From Polychytrium aggregatum (Eukaryota > Chytridiomycota > Chytridiomycetes > Polychytriales), in contig NW_026516287.1 in the NCBI RefSeq assembly GCF_025602895.1, positions 124,001 to 188,000 on the forward strand: a stretch of 64,000 nt of DNA, given 5' to 3'. Made by a program: the position numbers and the translations under genes. Positions 3,001 through 26,509 of the stretch are shown here, piece after piece. The notes under the pieces were generated by a model. That model did no database searches. It saw only the letters and a program-made list of their open reading frames with translations, and was not told the origin of the DNA. Position 1 is the stretch's first letter; each line of letters starts with the position of its first letter.

Positions 3001-5968
3001 AAACGCCGCGCCGCCGCCAGAATAAGATATTAGCAGTGCTCAGATACGGTACTATGCCTTACAGAGAATGCTCTCGACTCGAAAGAGCTCGATGGATCTG
3101 AGATTACAATCCAGTGCATGCAGCCGCCCTTGCCTTTGAATAGCCGTTATCGATTCTAAGGCAGTTTGACGCCGCCATCTGCGCACCCATTTTGTCTCCG
3201 GAGAGAAACTTGAGCTTGGACATGTAAAACATGGCATCGGTTGAGCCCGGAACAATCTTTGATACGATTTCGAGCAAACTGTGCACCGTTGACAATAGCT
3301 TATCAGGCTCTTCTCCTGTGCAGTGGTGCAGGAGAGATCGTGTCAGACGCTCGATAGAGCCGATCGTACTCTCAATGATAACGGGACATGCCCCCTCCTC
3401 TTCTATTGCGCCCATCCCTTGTCCCCACCTGGGGCTGCTGTCAACATACCTTCCCTCTTAGGCTCAGAGGGGCAATGTTCCATGTAGTCTCGTACAATCT
3501 CGAGAAGAAAATCCGGGTTCACGGTGTAAAAGTAGCTGAGACTGTCGGTCACCGGTAACGTTTAGCCGACGTCGCAATCTGCATCCATGATCTCAGACTC
3601 GGCGCCTGCCACCTGCCACCCACCCGCAACACTTCAGTCATACCTGAGGGTCTCGGACTGTATGCGCCGCATTTGCAGACTCACTGCCTCTTGGAGATAC
3701 TTGAGTCGTTTCTCGGCATCCCGTCTCGTGTACCACACATACACAGACGTCAAGTAGGCGACCTCTGGCGATCGCTCTAGCATTTCGATTGCGATTATGC
3801 AGTTAATCAATGCGGCACCAATGCAGTATGATCGAAGCAACGAGAATACTAAATAATGCAAAATAATGCAAAGTGATGTTATGAGAATGAACGGGAATGC
3901 AACAAGCAGCATCTCTCACCCATGGATGTCTGAATCTCGTTGAAGATCTCGAGCTGCTCCTGCGCCTGATCAAAATCGCCGCTGTAGAGCTGGAACCGGA
4001 TAAGCCCTGTCATGGATCAAGCTCTTGTATCAGCGGTACCGAACTATGCGAGATGACATCATTGTGCGACATTGAACGTGCCTTCTAATGCATGGATGTT
4101 GTGTGCGTCTAGTGACGAGGCTTGCTGATAGGACTGCTTCGCCTTTGCGAGGTTTCCTGGAGGGCAAAGGATGAGGATGAGGACGCAGCACATACTACTG
4201 TCGGTCTCGTTGTCGATCACATCTCGCGGCCCTCCACCCAGTGTGATTGTATCAACGACGAACAAAAGCGCCACCTGCCTTGCAGAAGCTGCGTGAATCC
4301 CAGCTCGGTGTAGCACTGACTGCTGGCGGGGTTCAGTGCAATGGCGCGCTCAAGAAGCGAAATACACTGCTCCAAGATACTGTCCAACCGAGGTTAGTGG
4401 ATAGGCGACATGGAAGCACCGGCACGCTCGGGAGTACTCACGCTGGAGTCCGGTTGGCCAGCCGCACAAACGAGCGTGCGATGGTGTAGTAGAGTTCGGA
4501 GTTGTAAGGCTCAGCGCCGAGCAGCGCCTGGAAATGGGAATTTCAGATCATGGTTGACGGGCAAGATCAGGCATGTTAGCACGGGTCAAGCCAAGGTGGG
4601 ATTTGGACCTGATCTCGGCATGGCTCGGTCGTGCTTGTTCGGGAGGGCATATTTGCTTTCTGGAGTTGCGGGCTATATGCAAACCAGCAGCAGCAGAAGT
4701 AGCAGCGGTGGCAGATCCAGGGCTACTGACCTTGTTGAGCGAGTTGATGTAAGGCACAACCATCTTGGAACCTCCCTCGCGGCACATCTCGTTGAGACAA
4801 ATCATGATCAAGCCATCAATGTTGTCTGGGCTCTGTGCAAGCAGCTTTTGAGAGGCTTCCACTGCCTGCTCCCATGCCGACATTTCCAAAAGCACGTACA
4901 TTCGTTCGACATGCGCCGGGACGAACGCCGGGTAGTGGACAATGATCTGCGAGGCTACTTCGAGTGCTCCTGAGGTTTGACATCCCTGGAGCCGGAGACA
5001 TCGGAGCCTTCCCACAAGCGCACCGAGGTCCTTGGGTGCGCGCGCCAGGACCTTGCCAAAGAGAGCCAGTGCCTTCTGCACATCTGGATCACTGTTGTTG
5101 ATTTCGTACATGCCGAGGCTCGCGAGGGCGGCATTTGAATTGGAGTTGAGCTCCTGAGCCTTGCTCAAGTGCAGCTTTGCCGTGTCTGGGGATCCAAGAT
5201 ACAGGTGGAAGAGACCGCTCTGGAGCAAGGCTCGCTCCGTGACCGCTCCGGACGAGCTGATGATGGTGATTCGCGCCTGAAGTTCCTCGACGGCCTCGTG
5301 GTCTGGTATCGGCAGAGTCAGCCCTTTGATCAGTGTCGTCATCGGATGGATCGCTTTGCAGAAAGCTGTGCAGAGATCCTTGGCAGACACAAAGGAACCA
5401 CAGCATACCGACGTGTTTGCACTGCTGATGAGCAAATATGATTGCGGCTGGGCATGCTAAAGCCAAGTCTCTCTTCTCCTGCAGAGTTTCAAGCTCTCGA
5501 ATGGCCTCTGTTGGTTTGCCTGTGGAACCATGAATGAGCGATACTCGAGTTACGGTAAATGACAGCAGATACCACAGCCTAGCCAGTATCTAGGTGGCAT
5601 TATTTCGGCCACTCTATTGCCCACAATCCCGTTCGATCTCGGGTTTACCATCCATCGTCAGCGCGACGCATCTCCAGAACCGGAGAACCGGATCACCGAC
5701 GCGCTTCTTGAGAGCGGTGTCGCATGCCGTCAGGATGTGGTGATACCACTTTCGCTGGGCAAAGTACTCAATCTGGAGGAACGAGGAATCATCGCAGGGA
5801 TTCAGCAATGAGCGCTCAGAGCAGCGAGTGGCAGCGAATTTCATGGAATGCCGGAGGCATTGATACGAGGGGGGGGGCAAGGTGCGGGAATCAGTCCCGG
5901 GCATATGAAAGCAGGATCAAGTCACAGAAGATTCGTTCCATTACCGTCGCAATGTCCTCGTCGCTCAT
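1..5968 (-). CDS. TTC21B: Intraflagellar transport protein IFT139 (TTC21B), 3' end off the left edge
   Basis: This is a TPR-superhelix subunit of the IFT-A complex, which drives retrograde transport in flagella. The start is ATG at 5968. Exon 1 (5945-5968) joins exon 2 (5649-5772) to give MSDEDIATIEYFAQRKWYHH, which aligns with the animal TTC21B N-terminus. Exon 3 begins at 5519. Further TPR-rich exons run leftwards at about 5300-4730, 4530-4440, 4390-4260, 4160-4060, 3830-3640, 3400-3140, 3000-2770, 2410-2280, 2180-2020, 1700-1500, 1140-970, 830-480 and 310-80. Recognisable family blocks include MADIYLKYKNDK and LLGDAYMNI (about 2160-2020), EEATMMIADIM (about 700) and GFHYCRGLYY (about 490). 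The block IEIFLNPDNDTIGG near 220 corresponds to the last quarter of the protein, so roughly 200 or more residues lie outside the window. Not every intron edge was resolved. Presence of the gene implies a flagellated life stage. Confidence 0.93.
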
Positions 5969-10238: not shown

Positions 10239-12361
10239 TCAAGTGCTCTTTGGCCGAGGGCGGTATGCACAGCCATCGGCCTCGCTGTAGAGCGAGTAAG
10301 TTGGTGCACGGCCTTCGGAAATGGAGGCGATCAATTCTTGGCATCGCTCGTGAATCTGCTCAGATACTTCGACAAACTTTTCCTCAGGCTGCTCATCGGG
10401 ATCCTCAAGATTCCAATCTTCAAAGCGCTTTCCGATCTTCCATTCCTCGGGGACCGACGCTCCACAGCCACACATTGAAATCACAATATCGAAATCGGAA
10501 GGGCTAAATCGGTCGATTCCCTTGGAGAACTGTGAAGACAGATCAATGTCGCGATCTTTCATCACCTTGATTGCAACGGGATGGACTCTCGACTGCCCGA
10601 TCAGGCCAGCACTTTCGACTCGTCCAATGGTGCCGGCTGGGGCTTTCATCCGAAGTGTTTTGAGCCAACCTTCGGCCATTTGCGATCGGCACGAGTTCAT
10701 TCGGCAGACAAAGATGACGCTGCTGCCAGATGAGGCTTTCTCGTCGTTAGGCATGATGTTGACTGTGTCTTCCAAGTGAGTGAGATCACTAACTAAAACG
10801 GATTGACCGGATGCAGCTTGACCTTCAAGATCGCCATTCTTGGCCCGACGTTGACGAACGGATTCGTAGCGGTCTTTGATGAAGAGCGAGAGGTGCACAA
10901 GCCCCAGAAGGATTGGAACCTCGATCAACGGTCCGATCACAGTGGACAGTGCTTGCTGGGAATTGACTCCGTATGTTGCGATGGCGATGGCGATAGCAAG
11001 CTCAAAGTTGTTCCCGGCAGCGGTGAACGACTGAGTGGCAGCCAGTTCGTAGGGCACGCGTTGGAGAGCACACAGGGCAAATGTTGCCGTAAAAACCGTG
11101 CCAAAGTAGAGCACGAGCGGGACTGCGACCCTGGCAACGCTGCCGAAATCGTCGATGATTCTATTGCCCTGGGTGAGCAAAGTCAAACATAAGCCGAGAG
11201 ATCGCATTGCATCACAGCGCATTTCCAAAGGAGGCGGGACGAGACCCACCTGGAGGCTGAACATGACCACGATGGTGTACAGCAGGCCCAAGAGAGAGGT
11301 GGGGCCAATAACTGGAAGGAATTTCTCGTCGTACCACTTGGAGCCAAGGGTTGGGCGAAGGGAAAACCTTGTCACGATGCCCGCAAGGAGCGGAATGCCG
11401 AGGAACACGAGAACGCTTCGGGTGACTGATGGATTTGCAGTGTCAGCGACTTTCCGCCACTTGGCCCCAACGAAGCGCAACTTGCGTTCGAGAACTACAT
11501 ACCAAGCCAAAGGTCGATTGAGATGTTTGATCCGCCTCCGACGATGACACAAAAGAAGTATGCCGCAGGGCTGAATATCAGGACTTGGAGGATGGAATTG
11601 ACGGCGACAATGATGGCACACCACTCAGTGTCTCCTCCAGAGAGCTCGTTCCAGATCAAAACCTATTGCCAAAGAGTATCGGGAATGAGCTTCGTCCTTT
11701 GGACCCTTTTGATGGTGCACCGAGTTGGGAACCTACCATAGCGATGCATCGTGCAACGCCGACAAGGACAATGCCCTCACGGAAGCCCGGGAGATCGGGC
11801 AGGGTTGCCCAGGCGAACGCAGTCATGACGAATGGACAAAAGATCCAGTTGACCAGCAAGCTTGTCGTTATCGTTTTCACGGCGTGCTGTGACTTGAACA
11901 GCTGAGGGAGCTCTTCATATCGAACTTTGCTGCCGATTTGAACATGATGTTAGTCCCATGGGCATCACGAGATGCCTTTGGCTTTGATGATGCAGCACGA
12001 CCAAGTCTTCGTCAAGGACTCACCAAAGCACTGGATACATCATCCAAAGCAGTCCAACGGCAATTGGAACAGAGACATCGACGATGGTTGACTGGTTGAA
12101 TGCGGCCTGGACACTTGGGACAAATTTACCGAGCAAGATGCCGGTAACCATGGCTGCATTCCAGGGCCGATCACGTGGAATCAGACGCCGCACAAACCGA
12201 GCAAAATAGGGTTGATCGCGGGGTTAGGGCTTTGCGGCGGGCAAAGGGCGGACCAGCCAGGCTTGGGCATGCCTCTCTCTCTCGCTGCGAAACGTACCGA
12301 TCAAGATCCAGAGCGGGAGAAGCTTGTTGAGCCAAGAGAGAGACTTTTTGGATCCGCTCAT
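10239..12361 (-). CDS. ACR3: ACR3 arsenite efflux permease fused to thioredoxin-type arsenate reductase (ArsC)
   Basis: Six exons, 12298-12361, 12024-12153, 11737-11929, 11503-11662, 11250-11425 and 10239-11168, sum to 1653 nt in one frame (550 residues). Residues about 1-335 are an ACR3 arsenite/H+ antiporter of about ten membrane helices. It carries the diagnostic VARCIAM motif (functional Cys) and NFELAIAIA motif (functional Glu). After a linker of about 60 hydrophilic residues comes an ArsC domain of about 150 residues of the low-molecular-weight-phosphatase fold. Its P-loop VCRMNSCRSQMAEGW has the CX5R nucleophile loop, followed by a second Cys cluster SMCGCG and the block GKRFEDWNLEDP. 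Such reductases resolve an intramolecular disulphide with thioredoxin. Yeast instead uses a separate Cdc25-like Acr2. All introns fall in the permease; the ArsC part is intronless within the last exon. The protein should sit in the plasma or vacuolar membrane. Origin by fusion or transfer from bacteria is inference. Confidence 0.93.
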
Positions 12362-12627
12362 GGCGAGAGAGTTCGAGGGGCGAGGGGTTCGAGGGGCGAG
12401 GAGGGCAGGCGTCGTCTGCTGCCGGAAGTCGTCCGTCTGCTGGGTATGGCCCTGAAGCGAGGCGGGGAGATGGAGGGGAGTATTTATGGGGCTGTCGCCC
12501 GCCTTGCCGCTCGCCTCGCTGGGCTGGTTGTGGCAGGCCGGAGATGGTTCCTTGTCCTGCCCAATCCCGTGCACCCACTGCCCCTTTGGCGTTACAGTCA
12601 TCGTTCGTGCAAGGCCCATTTGGCGTT

Positions 12628-12743
12628 GTAGTCATCACCGCCTCGCACACAACTGCACGCCACCTGGAGAGACACGTGCACCGCACCACGTTCAGGCCCT
12701 GAGTAGTCATCAGCCGTTGTAGTCATCAGCCGTTGTAGTCATC
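12628..12743 (+). repeat. GTAGTCATC boxes, cluster 1
   Basis: Copies lie at 12628-12636, 12703-12711, 12719-12727 and 12735-12743. The last three are spaced exactly 16 bp and embedded in a GTAGTCATCAGCCGTT tandem repeat. Confidence 0.85.
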
Positions 12744-12843
12744 AGTACAGCGCTGTTATTGTCATTGCTTCTTTTTTTCTTGATTGTGCGCCGCCGTGAC
12801 GGAGCACCGGCCATCAGAACCCCATAGTCCCTTGCGTCTCGGT

Positions 12844-12876
12844 GTGGTCATCGGTGTAGTCATCGGTGTAGTCATC
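12844..12876 (+). repeat. GTAGTCATC boxes, cluster 2
   Basis: Copies lie at 12844-12852 (GTGGTCATC), 12856-12864 and 12868-12876, spaced exactly 12 bp. The 9-bp core is shared with cluster 1 but the spacer differs, so the core rather than the whole unit is conserved. Confidence 0.85.
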
Positions 12877-13131
12877 AGCCGACGTCCGGGATTGATCGAT
12901 CGACCACGTTCCTGGAGGATGCGCCTGCCCACCTCCCAGAGTTGCTGGATTGCCCACCACCTCCTCACCTGCGAACCATGAACCAATCAATTCCTGAGGG
13001 TCAGCATGGTTGGCCAAGAGTCCATCTGGAGATACGGTCCAATATGCGAAGCCGAGGCGGTTGGCACGGCCGTATTTAGAGGGGTGGTGGAGACTTCGTT
13101 CCGACTCGACGATATCCCTCCGGTTTGCTAG

Positions 13132-15180
<2,049 letters not shown>

Positions 15181-15746
15181 ATGTATAGTACGCCTCCCCA
15201 GCGCATATCTTGTTTGTCCAATACATAATCTCACTTGGTCAAAACTCCTCATCACACTCTATATATCTGCATCGCAACTATCGCCACGGTTTGATAAAGA
15301 ACATAGGTCATTTTTGTCCCCAGCGTGTCTAAACATGCCCTGGCATTCAGGAATCTCCGCCTGGTTTTGATGAGCATCTAAGGAACTCAATATCATGATA
15401 CTTTAGATCAGGCTTTCTAGCTGGACATTGGTAGAATGCATCCTCACCAAGTCCAAGCAGATGCACTCAGTATACTCCTCATATGGAGTGATCGTATTTT
15501 TGTAAAGGGAGACATTTGTATATTCAGGAGCGGCAGCAGATGGGCGCCTATTTGGGCCATTGATTGTCGCCCTTGCCGCGGCCATTGTGCATACCAGTGC
15601 TTCGTTTCATGCAGGCGAGACACTTGCCATTAGCTCCAAATGTTGAGCGATCTTTGGAGCTGGCACGGATTTGCTTTAGCGGTGCCCATTCCACTCGGAT
15701 CGCCGGCCATGGGACTCGCGGCCACCAAAGCTACGGATCTATGGAT
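15181..15746. other. Convergent intergenic region
   Basis: These 566 bp separate the 3' ends of the TRR1 gene and the RGS receptor gene. The DNA is AT-richer than its neighbours. No ORF or repeat of note was recognised. Confidence 0.4.
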
Positions 15747-21960: not shown

Positions 21961-22689
21961 TGTCCATCCCTCTCGCATGCATTTGAACTTTCTCCTCCAA
22001 ACACATCAAGGGGATTTTTTGGCATAGAGCAGGCCCCAGGATGCATCCATTCGTCTATTCATTTCTCGCGCAGCTTGTGCTTTGGGCGAGCGATGCTGGA
22101 TTGGCGCTCAGGTCCACAATGTCGCCGGGAACCCTCTCCACACGTACCCTCATCACCTCCACTTCCACCCTCCCTCCCCTGCAGTCGCACTGCTTGGTCC
22201 CAGTTTGGCGGCGACCAGATCCGAGGGTTGGCCACCGCCGCCTCCGATGCGGCGAGTCCAATACAAACACTTCTCGTCCACCCTGATCGGCTGCGTGCGT
22301 GTGCGGACATCGGAAGCCCCCGGGTTGGCGGGAGAAGATCGAGACGAGGGTCATGGACACTATGAAAAAAATTCTTGTTAAAAAAATGAGCGAGAACGAC
22401 AAAACGCGCTCTCGGAGCCACCTCGGTCGGCGAGAAGAGCAGTCTCTGGCGAGAGACCCCCGAGGGAAGGCGAGAAGCCTCTCGCCGTCACACACACACA
22501 CTTTGCACACACACACACATCCGCACACACACACTTTGCACAAGGGAGTCAAACACCTCCCATCGACCATCCCAAGAGGGATGGCAACCCCGAAGTGGAC
22601 TGCCCAGAATATGGGCGACCCGGCATCCACTGTCGACATACTCAAGGAACAGTGCGAGATACTTACAGTCTATCCAGAAAGAAACGGGA
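21961..22689. other. Intergenic with CA microsatellite
   Basis: This is the 3' flank of the GATA gene and the distal end of the Fanzor remnant. The only clear structure is the CA repeat. The minus-strand open frame of the remnant stays open through it to 22488, but the sequence beyond about 22690 has no recognisable homology. Confidence 0.4.
22489..22542. repeat. CA/TG microsatellite, interrupted
   Basis: Three runs of (CA)n are separated by CTTTG and TCCG interruptions. Confidence 0.9.
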
Positions 22690-23645
22690 CAGTCACTTTC
22701 TGGCTTCAGAGGCCTGAACCCCGCTGACTGACTTGTAGGCCCAGCGGGCAGGCCATGGCATTGCACTCCTGTCTTCGTTGGCAATCGAGTGGTTTTGGTT
22801 GGTTTGGGAAGCACAGTCTTGAATACACCCGGTCGATCTCCTGTGGCGATGATCGACTGGCATACCGAGATCATATTCCTGGTTGCATTGATGTCTCGAT
22901 CCCACAGCGTATGGCAGCTTGCACAGCTCCGGACAAAGTGTAGTTTCTCGACATCAAGATGCTCGACCTTCTCGAGTCGCTTGGCTTCCCGGCAATGTGA
23001 GCACACCTGGGATGTGTTGAACTCGTTCACCGAGCACACATGGATCTTGGAGACGGATTGGTCTGGTGGTCGTCTCTGGTGGTCGTCTCTGGTGGTCGTC
23101 TCTGGTGGTGGTGGAACTGCTCAAAGTACTTGACGAACCTGAGTCTCCGTGGGCTGGATGCGTATCCCTTCCCTTGTTTCCACAAGGCATTCCCAAAGGC
23201 AATCACCACTTCGGTCTCCCTTGGTGCCTGGTCGATGACTTGCTTGCACATCTCGTGGACAGTGCGCTGTCGCTTGCTGTGGAGATCGAGTCGCTTGAAT
23301 CGCCGTCGCCGGGTCAGGCTGAAGTACAGCTGTTTGTCCAGCATGTCTCCATCGAACACATGCCGAATTATTGCAGGAATGAAGCCAACCCAGGGATCTT
23401 GGGACTTGGTGTGGTGCTCATCCATTCCTGCAGACCAAGGATCTTGTGGGTGCTCTGGATCCACTTGGTCGCCTGGGTGGTGTCTTTCTCTTGCGGGGAG
23501 CCATCTGGCGTGAAAATAGCGACGATGGCTGGTTCTGCCCTTGGGGAAGAAAAATTCTCCTCAAAACCAGCGCATTTTGGGCTGGCAGAGATACTGCACA
23601 GTGGCGTCCTTGATTCAGATCCAGAAACGCATCGCTCGCTCAATC
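22690..23645 (-). pseudogene. Fanzor / TnpB-like RNA-guided nuclease relic
   Basis: Three minus-strand reading-frame segments in order resemble the C-terminal half of a Fanzor (eukaryotic TnpB) protein. Segment a (about 23643-23390) has AEPAIVAIFTPDG, which could be the strand of the RuvC-I region, but its catalytic Asp is not evident (SSPR precedes it). Segment b (about 23430-23115) has SLTRRRRFKRLDLHSKRQ and TEVVIAFGNALWKQGKG. Segment c (from about 23070) has SVNEFNTSQVCSHC, then SCASCHTLWDRDINATRNM, which is the zinc ribbon and the RuvC-III Asp (DRDINATRN). In Fanzors the canonical RuvC-II Glu is reported lost and replaced by a Glu elsewhere, which the NEF motif could represent. Frame changes at about 23400 and at the 13-bp repeat make it non-functional unless introns rescue it. 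No terminal repeats, guide RNA or N-terminal half were identified. Confidence 0.75.
23062..23114. repeat. 13-bp tandem repeat inside the Fanzor relic
   Basis: TCTGGTGGTCGTC occurs three times in register (23062, 23075, 23088), followed by a partial copy. A 13-bp unit changes reading frame with each copy. It sits exactly between segments b and c of the Fanzor relic. Confidence 0.9.
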
Positions 23646-24267: not shown

Positions 24268-26509
24268 ATGACCCAGCTCGCCGAGCTCCGCAAGCAGGAA
24301 GGAAACCAGTTCTTCCAGGACCAGCTCTACGAGAAAGCGATTCAGGCGTACACCTCCGCCATTGCAAGTATCGCTTTGGCCATTGCGGGCGATGACAGCG
24401 ACGGACAGACACTCCGGGGACAGGCTCCTGCGGATGTGCTTGCCGCCTGTCCCGGCACGCTCGCTGCTCCATCGGCGCTAATTTGCATGAGGAATCTACG
24501 CTTCGGCACATCCAGATCCATGACAATGGCAATGCAGTCTACTACACCAACCGAGCACTGTGCCGCCTCAAGCTCTACGAATATACCAAAGCTCGCCAAG
24601 ACTGTGAGCGGGCTATTGAGCTGAACCCGAAAGCAGGTTGGAGCCATCGCCAAAGCACTGATATCGCACCAGACAGCAGAGCCGACGAGTGCGGCAGGCG
24701 ACACTTCAAAATGTGCCGAATCAGAAATCTGAACCCATTGGCCTGGCTCTGTCTCAGTTAAGGCTTGGTACTTTGTACGTATATGTATCTCTGCAGACGC
24801 AACCCCAGATGGCTCCATGCCTGCTGGTCAGCGATTCCAAGTCTGACCATCGACTGGTGGCTGATGCCGCGAACCATTGTGCAGCTCGGGCAGGCACTCT
24901 TGGAAGACGATGAGTCGATAGAACGGGCGGTCGTCTGTCTTGAGAAAGGTAAGCTCCTCACCCTCTCCAACGATTTGCTGTGTCGGGACCTGTTGCGATC
25001 TTGTGCACTTCATATTGGTGGCCCATCCGAGCGCCATCCAAGCATACTGCATGTTTCCTGATCCCTCGTTGCGTCCTGGACTTACTCCCGAACAGCACAC
25101 CAGCTTGCCATCGAAACCAAGAGTGAGTCTTGTGCGCCAGCGTTGCAATCGGCCCCGATGCGGAGAAATGGCAGTCGGCTCCCATTTGCATGCTTCTCCT
25201 GTGCACGGGTCGGCGGAAGTTGCCGTCGCTGGGCTCGCCCATGCTCCTTGCAGCTTCACCCATCCTCGCTTGTCGGCAGCATCACTTGTTGGACTTACAG
25301 AGCCGAACCTGCGGTTGCTTGTCATTTTTTCTTGCAGTGATTTCGTTTGTCAAATCGATCGACAAGACGTACCTCCAAGCGCGCAAGAAGAAATGGGAAC
25401 GTGCCGAACAGCGCCGCCGAGAGCGAGAGAACAGCTTGCTCCCGTTCCTGAAGCAGCTTATCGTACGCGAGCGAGATTCGAGGCAAGCCTGGACGCTGGG
25501 AAAGTGCCACTCGGGGAAAGTGAAAGAGCGGCGAGACATCCAAATTGACTGTGGACCCTCTCATCGGCATCGAGCAGGCTTCAATCCCATGTGGCCGACA
25601 CTACGAGCAGCGCGGAAGAACTTGTAAGCCCTCGCGGACGAGCGCCATCGACGCAGAGCCGGGTCTGGTTTGGTTCCACCTCAAGGGCTCTCCGCTGGGA
25701 CGGCCAGCGCATCAGTGGATCGATAAGATTGGGGCAATATCACGAACATCCCGGATCGTCTCCGCATCGATACACACGTGCTGACCGTATGTGCTCCCGC
25801 AGGACGAGCGGATTGCGCAAGTCGAGAGGCTGTTCAAGGACTTGGATGTGCTTCGCAAGCAGCAAGAGGAGGTATGCTGTCCTGTGAGGCAACATCGTCC
25901 CGCTGAAGCAAGCGGACCCATATCGCCGCTACATCGCCAGCCTCTGCGGCCACGACTGACACACATGCTCCGATGGTCCGGGCCGTGCGTGCGGCTCCAT
26001 CAGCGACGATTCGTGCCTGACTGCTTCCTGGGCAAGATTCACTTTGAAGTCATGACCGATCCAGTCGTCACCCCAGCGGGAATCACGTACGACCGCAGCG
26101 AGATCCTGGAGCATCTCGATCGCATTGGAGGCTACGATCCCGTCTCGCACACGCCGCTTGATGAGGCCGACTTGGTACCAAACCGGGCTCTCAAAGGTAA
26201 GGAGACGCATGCCAACAACTCTTATCGCTAGGATGCAGCGGGTCGCCAAGACAGCGTCAACACGATTCATGGTGTATGCGCTAGCAAGCCTCTGTCGGCG
26301 CCGTCTGACAACATGCCCGTCTTCATTTCCGATCATGACAGAGGCGATCGACGAATACCTCAACGGGTAAGATACCGACCCAGAAAGGCGCCGCCTATAC
26401 GTGGTCACTGAGACCTGGGGCCTTCGTGCGACATAAGTTGTTTCAAGCGCCAAATGGCTGATTCTTTTTGTTCTGTTCTCCTAGGCAAGGATGGGCTGTC
26501 GACTATTGA
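24268..26509 (+). CDS. STUB1: CHIP-type E3 ubiquitin ligase / Hsp70-Hsp90 co-chaperone (TPR + U-box)
   Basis: The start ATG is at 24268 (MTQLAELRKQEGNQFFQDQL) and the stop at 26507-26509. Exon 1 is 24268-24363, exon 2 24516-24636 (NGNAVYYTNRALCRLKLYEY, the TPR clamp), exon 3 about 24832-24948 (LGQALLEDDESIERAVVCLE), exon 4 25096-25122 (HQLAIETK). Exon 5 from 25338 gives the helical hairpin (QARKKKWERAEQRRRE). Later exons give DERIAQVERLFKDLDVLRKQ and the U-box GKIHFEVMTDPVVTPAGITY with YDPVSHTPLDEADLVPN. The last exon (26485-26509) ends the protein with EYLNGQGWAVDY, nearly the same as the animal CHIP end. CHIP binds the EEVD tails of Hsp70/Hsp90 and ubiquitinates clients. S. cerevisiae lacks it. 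Intron 1 appears to be GC-AG. The exon between the hairpin and DERIAQ is uncertain. Confidence 0.92.

Follow-up and report, generated by a model that had tools for sequence, protein, structure and literature searches.

A putative single-chain ACR3-ArsC arsenate detoxification protein predicted in a zoosporic fungus

Introduction

The fungal arsenate reductase Acr2 is a separate, Cdc25-like protein. Reductases of bacterial type are also reported from fungi: the chytrid Batrachochytrium has one (PMC5005798), and some fungi, Penicillium chrysogenum included, have a transferred arsC (PMC3532085); the accessible text of these sources mentions no fusion to ACR3. Joined proteins have been described in bacteria. 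ACR3-ArsC fusions are reported from Mycobacterium (PMC6205960, PMC6514093), their ArsC being placed in the thioredoxin-dependent clade (PMC6514093), and examples are a 498-aa protein of M. tuberculosis and cluster C3 of PMC6514093. An aquaglyceroporin-ArsC fusion is reported from Salinispora (PMC6205960). The ArsC of Synechocystis is reported to work with glutathione/glutaredoxin (PMC4010505, PMC4307280) and beside an Acr3-type pump, and it is described as related to the thioredoxin-dependent enzymes (PMC4010505).

The locus presented here lies in a window of 64,000 nucleotides, by which we mean the whole stretch of DNA analysed. Its predicted six-exon frame encodes an ACR3 permease and an ArsC in one polypeptide. 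The gene product is probably a single-chain arsenate detoxification protein of a zoosporic fungus, composed of a fungal-type ACR3 and a captured, cyanobacterial-type ArsC that would be recycled by glutaredoxin. No ACR3-ArsC fusion in a fungus or other eukaryote was found in the accessible text of the open-access literature. Since bacterial fusions and fungal arsC transfers are in print, the new part would be the fusion in a fungus, unless relatives share it widely.

Gene structure and assembly copies

The fusion gene and its parts are located in the window as follows.

10239..12361, minus strand: predicted ACR3-ArsC fusion gene, six exons, 550 aa, with profile matches to TIGR00832, TIGR02689 and LMWPc
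12298..12361, minus strand: exon 1, start codon at 12361-12359
12024..12153, minus strand: exon 2
11737..11929, minus strand: exon 3, with Cys126 of the VARCIAM motif at 11746-11748
11503..11662, minus strand: exon 4
11250..11425, minus strand: exon 5
10239..11168, minus strand: exon 6, a single open frame from ACR3 residue 242 through the linker and the complete ArsC to a 25-residue tail
10890..12340, minus strand: ACR3 permease domain, residues 8-334, from TIGR00832 and the ACR3 trees
10920-10922, minus strand: Glu324, in exon 6
10719..10889, minus strand: linker, residues 335-391, stop-free, with an in-frame ATG (Met380, 10752-10754)
10329..10718, minus strand: ArsC domain, residues 392-521, nearest to the glutathione/glutaredoxin (Synechocystis) type
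10686..10706, minus strand: P-loop C396-X5-R402, from the alignment
10464..10472, minus strand: Cys474 and Cys476 of the CGCG motif, from the alignment

When the splice model was rebuilt from the sequence, the predicted product was 1653 nt long and translated to 550 aa plus a stop, in agreement with the six exons and 550 residues of the original prediction. All five introns have GT...AG borders and measure 144, 94, 74, 77 and 81 nt in gene order. As had been claimed, every one of them falls within the ACR3 span and the ArsC part is intronless; exon 6, 930 nt long, runs free of internal stops from the last part of ACR3 through the linker and ArsC. The motifs named for the two activities are likewise intact, with Cys126 and Glu324 in the permease and C396-RMNSC-R402 as the CX5R P-loop of the reductase. 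The proposed architecture of reduction and efflux in one protein is borne out by the presence of both domains in a single frame. This frame fits both families over almost their full length, so chance is excluded as an issue.

The gene is present twice in the 64.7-Mb assembly, on contig C403 (the window) and on contig C397. The two copies differ at a single position of the 2,123-bp gene span, where the frame of the second copy is intact, and at one more in the adjoining intergenic stretch; given these single-base differences, they look like two haplotypes. Assembly-wide profile searches, which were done exon by exon and therefore give lower bounds on locus counts, placed the SBF model (covering ACR3) at these two loci only and the LMWPc model at the same loci plus a weak 24.9-bit place on C375. 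That the contig is a bacterial contaminant is ruled out by the introns, the two collinear copies and a eukaryotic neighbour. GC3 is 0.56 in the ArsC part vs 0.65 in ACR3 and 0.89 in the last exon of the neighbouring gene; by composition, the ArsC part appears not clearly distinct from its surroundings.

The assembly also carries signals of its host. Chitin_synth_1N matched at 13 places, of which 10 form equal-scoring pairs on two contigs, as against 0 of 14 prokaryote controls, and the fungal host that had been assumed is thereby supported. A homologue of TTC21 (IFT139), an intraflagellar transport protein, lies at the left end of the window (exons 399-1040 and 4551-5456, minus strand; 115.5 and 96.4 bits). 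Taken together, Chitin_synth_1N and TTC21 indicate a flagellated, zoosporic fungus whose assembly contains two haplotypes, as judged from sequence.

The ACR3 half

Residues 8-334 matched TIGR00832 with 386.7 bits, above the curated cut-off of 282.8, and the Pfam model SBF also recognises this half. The conserved Cys of the R-C-I-AMV motif corresponds to Cys126, which is Cys in 55 of the 56 aligned ACR3 rows, and the Glu of a late transmembrane helix corresponds to Glu324, which is Glu in 54 of 56. Another cysteine, Cys65 of the PVLCKV motif, occurs in 2/56 rows only, the fungal ACR3 and the manually entered yeast Arr3. Both termini of ACR3 are cytosolic, so the attached ArsC would sit on the right side of the membrane. 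A crude hydropathy plot gave about nine separate peaks. ACR3 is described as having ten transmembrane helices, and a Cys and a Glu of this kind are reported as important for its transport (PMC12860867).

The ArsC half

The reductase had been called a thioredoxin-type ArsC, and this assignment did not hold. Pfam LMWPc matched the ArsC half with 79.4 bits (cut-off 23.2). The best NCBIfam model was TIGR02689, of the glutathione/glutaredoxin type, with 138.9 bits; since this lies below the curated cut-off of 157.6, the domain is described as a divergent relative and not as a certified member. The thioredoxin-type models reached 66.6 bits (TIGR02691, curated cut-off 174.3) and 64.2 bits. The closest sequences in the PDB are those of Synechocystis ArsC (2l17, 2l19 and 2myu), with 2l17 the best at 129.4 bits.

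The cysteine pattern points the same way. In an alignment of 88 rows, made up of the fungal sequence, 40 from cyanobacteria and 47 from other prokaryotes, Cys474 and Cys476 are both present in 40/40 cyanobacterial rows and 0/47 others. Moreover, the Cys that precedes the conserved Pro in non-cyanobacterial rows is missing in the fungal ArsC, as it is in the cyanobacterial rows. Residues 378-550 were modelled with the help of 16 fetched relatives, and the resulting structure (mean pLDDT 81.7) was compared with the PDB by Foldseek. By E-value, 2l17 (52% identity to the model), 2l19 and 2myu came first, before the ArsC of S. aureus and B. subtilis. TM-scores by target were 0.90 for 2cd7 (S. aureus ArsC), 0.87 for 2l17 and 0.91 for 2myu; TM-scores alone do not separate the ArsC classes, and the search with the predicted fold agrees by E-value only. 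On model scores, cysteine pattern and nearest solved sequences, the thioredoxin type is rejected, and the ArsC half appears nearest to the Synechocystis glutathione/glutaredoxin type, as a divergent relative. Glutaredoxin-family matches were found at 11 places in the genome.

Separate histories of the two halves

Separate trees of each half, as had been proposed and here drawn mostly against prokaryotic rows, gave different groupings. The ArsC relatives were the best 80 of 575 from a contig scan whose query alignment included cyanobacterial rows, so that cyanobacterial matches were favoured. Among these 80, the first 37 are without exception named as cyanobacteria, and so is the lower-ranking L106; rows shorter than 105 aa were excluded from trees and counts, and L106 is therefore absent there. 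A first, quick tree put the fungus beside the cyanobacteria (SH-aLRT 93). In the careful tree of 85 rows, which left out three long rows (L116, L122 and L126), the fungus and all 40 cyanobacterial rows lie on one side of a branch with 99/89, the bootstrap not having settled. The fungal ArsC branch is long (1.39) and the alignment is short (129 columns).

In the ACR3 tree of 56 rows, the fungal ACR3 groups with yeast Arr3 (100/99), a manually entered sequence with a long branch of 3.25, and then with eight actinobacterial plasmid rows (95/83). The cyanobacterial ACR3 rows stand in two other places. A second tree, purposely made without yeast Arr3 and L090, grouped the fungal ACR3 with actinobacteria at 91/63, which is not significant. 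The placement fits the reported distribution of homologues of algal pumps, for which close homologues are found in fungi and most bacterial ones in Terrabacteria, mainly Actinobacteria (PMC7826186).

In AU tests, whose groups were chosen after inspecting a first tree, the fungal ACR3 forced together with 12 rows of the nearer cyanobacterial ACR3 group was rejected (p-AU 0.003), and the ArsC constrained to group with five actinobacterial rows was not (p-AU 0.126). Because the latter grouping is not rejected, the ArsC tree alone is moderate evidence that this half is of cyanobacterial type; the CGCG count strengthens it. The discordance of the two trees favours a history in which a resident pump captured a reductase of foreign origin. 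The simplest reading of the sequences is that a resident fungal ACR3 acquired a cyanobacterial-type ArsC at its 3' end. This supports the first of two routes originally offered, the later capture of a bacterial domain.

Both the ACR3 tree and the frame test weigh against the second route, in which a complete fusion was transferred and gained its introns afterwards. None of the 99 fetched loci carried an uninterrupted ACR3-ArsC frame, in a test that used plus-strand matches above a length limit and had no known Mycobacterium fusion as positive control; 43 of the loci have both genes on the plus strand. A shared frame with a single stop was seen at six loci; in five of them ACR3 precedes ArsC, and in the sixth (L086) ArsC comes first. 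At L086, positions 583-2037 form a bacterial frame in which the stop falls near the end of the ACR3 match. Viral contigs scanned with each half gave no relative.

Comparison with known systems

Like the fungal protein, the Mycobacterium fusion unites ACR3 and an LMWP-type ArsC in one polypeptide, presumably in the same domain order. It is bacterial, whereas the fungal gene has five introns in the permease half. Its ArsC belongs to the thioredoxin-dependent clade, whereas the fungal ArsC is nearest to the glutathione/glutaredoxin class by model scores and the CGCG pair, and the ArsC tree agrees but leaves the actinobacterial grouping unrejected. The Salinispora fusion also joins a channel to an arsenate reductase, but the channel is an aquaglyceroporin and not ACR3, and the protein is bacterial. 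The ArsC of the Synechocystis arsBHC operon (2l17, 2myu) shares class, CGCG pair and fold with the fungal domain; it is free-standing and its pump is a separate gene, whereas the fungal ArsC is joined to the pump. In the ACR3 tree, the pump of Synechocystis salina (L036) is of a distant ACR3 type.

The fungal ACR3/ARR3 with Acr2 is similar in its pump, as the ACR3 half groups with the manually entered yeast Arr3. Acr2 is separate, whereas here a reductase from another superfamily is covalently joined to ACR3. The arsC genes of Batrachochytrium and Penicillium chrysogenum are likewise bacterial-type reductases in a fungus. ArsH was not found in a search of the assembly. A search for a yeast-type Acr2 was empty too, a blank that carries no weight as a sign of absence.

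The thioredoxin reductase neighbour and the intergenic repeats

Next to the fusion gene, two further features were recorded.

13141..15180, plus strand: thioredoxin reductase gene with introns, divergent neighbour, from profile matches
12362..13140, no strand: intergenic stretch of the two divergent genes, with six GTAGTCATC at 12628, 12703, 12719, 12735, 12856 and 12868

The thioredoxin reductase gene stands head to head with the start codon of the fusion gene, with 779 bp between them, and it is a possible functional partner. Crosstalk between thioredoxin reductase and glutaredoxin is reported from Synechocystis, so the neighbour could matter even for a glutaredoxin-type ArsC (PMC4307280).

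A block at 13137-15199 recurs at C3:112633-114697 and C246:339389-341453 with 99.4% identity, and it spans the thioredoxin reductase with its introns, its borders falling very close to the start and stop codons. Beyond this block, no similarity was found in the 30-40 kb compared. The four copies show 17 variable columns. Eight of these separate the two loci, which hints at some time apart; at 14595 and 14613 the C403 allele equals that of C246 and the C397 allele that of C3, which hints at exchange between the loci. Additionally, an intronless thioredoxin reductase was noted at C334:881424-882380 (minus strand; 369 bits, 512-codon frame); the gene may have come by transfer, or the contig may be a bacterial contaminant.

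The intergenic stretch holds a repeat array at 12596-12876, with sub-arrays of period 16 and 12. All six GTAGTCATC of the window lie here in one orientation, as against 0.27 expected and with 0 of 100 shuffles reaching six; the motif was picked after being seen, and the statistic is post hoc. A seventh AGTCATC stands at 12596. The core GATGACTAC is one that we take to resemble an AP-1/Yap-type site. Across the genome, there are 7 places where two GTAGTCATC stand at most 30 bases apart: each haplotype has three at this locus, and the seventh is on C70. A control pattern occurs nowhere, and the array is nearly unique to this locus. By eye, the C70 pair falls inside a deacetylase-like gene, and the search therefore revealed no regulon. 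AGTCATC is lacking close to the remaining copies of the thioredoxin reductase, the one match in each 30-kb stretch lying more than 15 kb away. The repeats could be candidate binding sites of a shared promoter; this function is a guess, as short tandem repeats also arise by slippage.

A wider reading would make the locus a unit of two lineages, in which ACR3, a captured glutaredoxin-dependent ArsC, a near-identical copy of thioredoxin reductase and a shared repeat-array promoter would let reduction, efflux and reducing power be inherited and switched together. We regard it as speculative and rather unlikely.

Proposed mechanism and alternatives

Arsenate would bind in the C396-X5-R402 loop of the C-terminal ArsC domain and be reduced through a cascade of Cys396, Cys474 and Cys476, and glutathione and glutaredoxin would then regenerate the domain in the manner of Synechocystis ArsC. 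The arsenite would then be set free beside the cytosolic mouth of the fused carrier and expelled by ACR3 through the Cys126/Glu324 site. By origin the protein would be a chimera, in which an intronless, cyanobacterial-type arsC was placed at the 3' end of a resident fungal-type ACR3 gene. The donor may have been a cyanobacterium or another carrier such as an alga, a possibility raised by arsBHC-like clusters reported in some green algae (PMC7826186).

Among the other explanations, the one to be taken most seriously is that the fusion is an ordinary, vertically inherited trait, shared by a set of zoosporic fungi or more broadly among eukaryotes. It concerns the spread of the fusion and is compatible with the proposed mechanism, and the long ArsC branch suggests an old acquisition; the reductase acquired horizontally by Batrachochytrium and the arsC transfers in other fungi (PMC5005798, PMC3532085) fit it as well, whereas the open-access literature searched yielded no eukaryotic ACR3-ArsC fusion. 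We hold this to be a real possibility, if on balance a doubtful one. An adjacent bacterial acr3-arsC operon pair might also have entered the fungus in one piece, with fusion there and intron gain at a later time. Among 41 cyanobacterial loci, of which 27 have an ACR3 in the fetched stretch, 7 have the nearer ACR3 type upstream of ArsC in the same orientation, at a distance below 200 nt, and in Elainella (L050) a single stop separates the two matches within one frame. These close pairs made an operon-type origin a fair rival until the ACR3 tree. The rejected grouping with cyanobacterial ACR3 speaks against a cyanobacterial pair, the CGCG pair is found in no non-cyanobacterial ArsC row, actinobacterial rows included, and five introns in ACR3 stand against none in ArsC; such a transfer now seems quite improbable.

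The capture of ArsC by a resident ACR3 gene thus remains the preferred origin, and two alternatives concern the product itself. It is improbable that the ArsC is coupled to thioredoxin and supplied by the neighbouring thioredoxin reductase. The divergent gene across the 779-bp intergenic stretch would suit such coupling, as would the thioredoxin reductase (ArsT) named in the legend of actinobacterial ars clusters (PMC6514093), but the model scores, the CGCG pair and the nearest solved sequences favour the glutaredoxin type, and the Cys before the conserved Pro is missing as in the cyanobacterial rows. It is highly improbable that ACR3 and ArsC are made separately, by an internal promoter or a start at Met380, with the fused frame unused: Met380 stands just ahead of ArsC and could start a separate ArsC, but the stretch between the domains is stop-free, and the end of ACR3 shares its exon with ArsC.

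If the single-chain reading is right, an enzyme that makes arsenite is joined to the pump that removes it, which would limit free arsenite in the cell. A fungal fusion whose reductase class differs from that of its bacterial counterparts would imply repeated origins of this solution. Furthermore, the discordant halves would offer a compact case of how a foreign domain is added to the 3' end of a eukaryotic gene. The predicted donor, glutaredoxin and not thioredoxin, is directly testable in yeast.

Other features of the window

An ORF at 22491-23120 (minus strand) carries a Cas12f1-like_TNB domain (PF07282, 38.8 bits) and possibly encodes a Fanzor/TnpB-like protein. A U-box domain exon lies at 25785-26228 (plus strand; 71.9 bits), and TPR-like stretches seen by eye upstream of it suggest a CHIP-like ubiquitin ligase.
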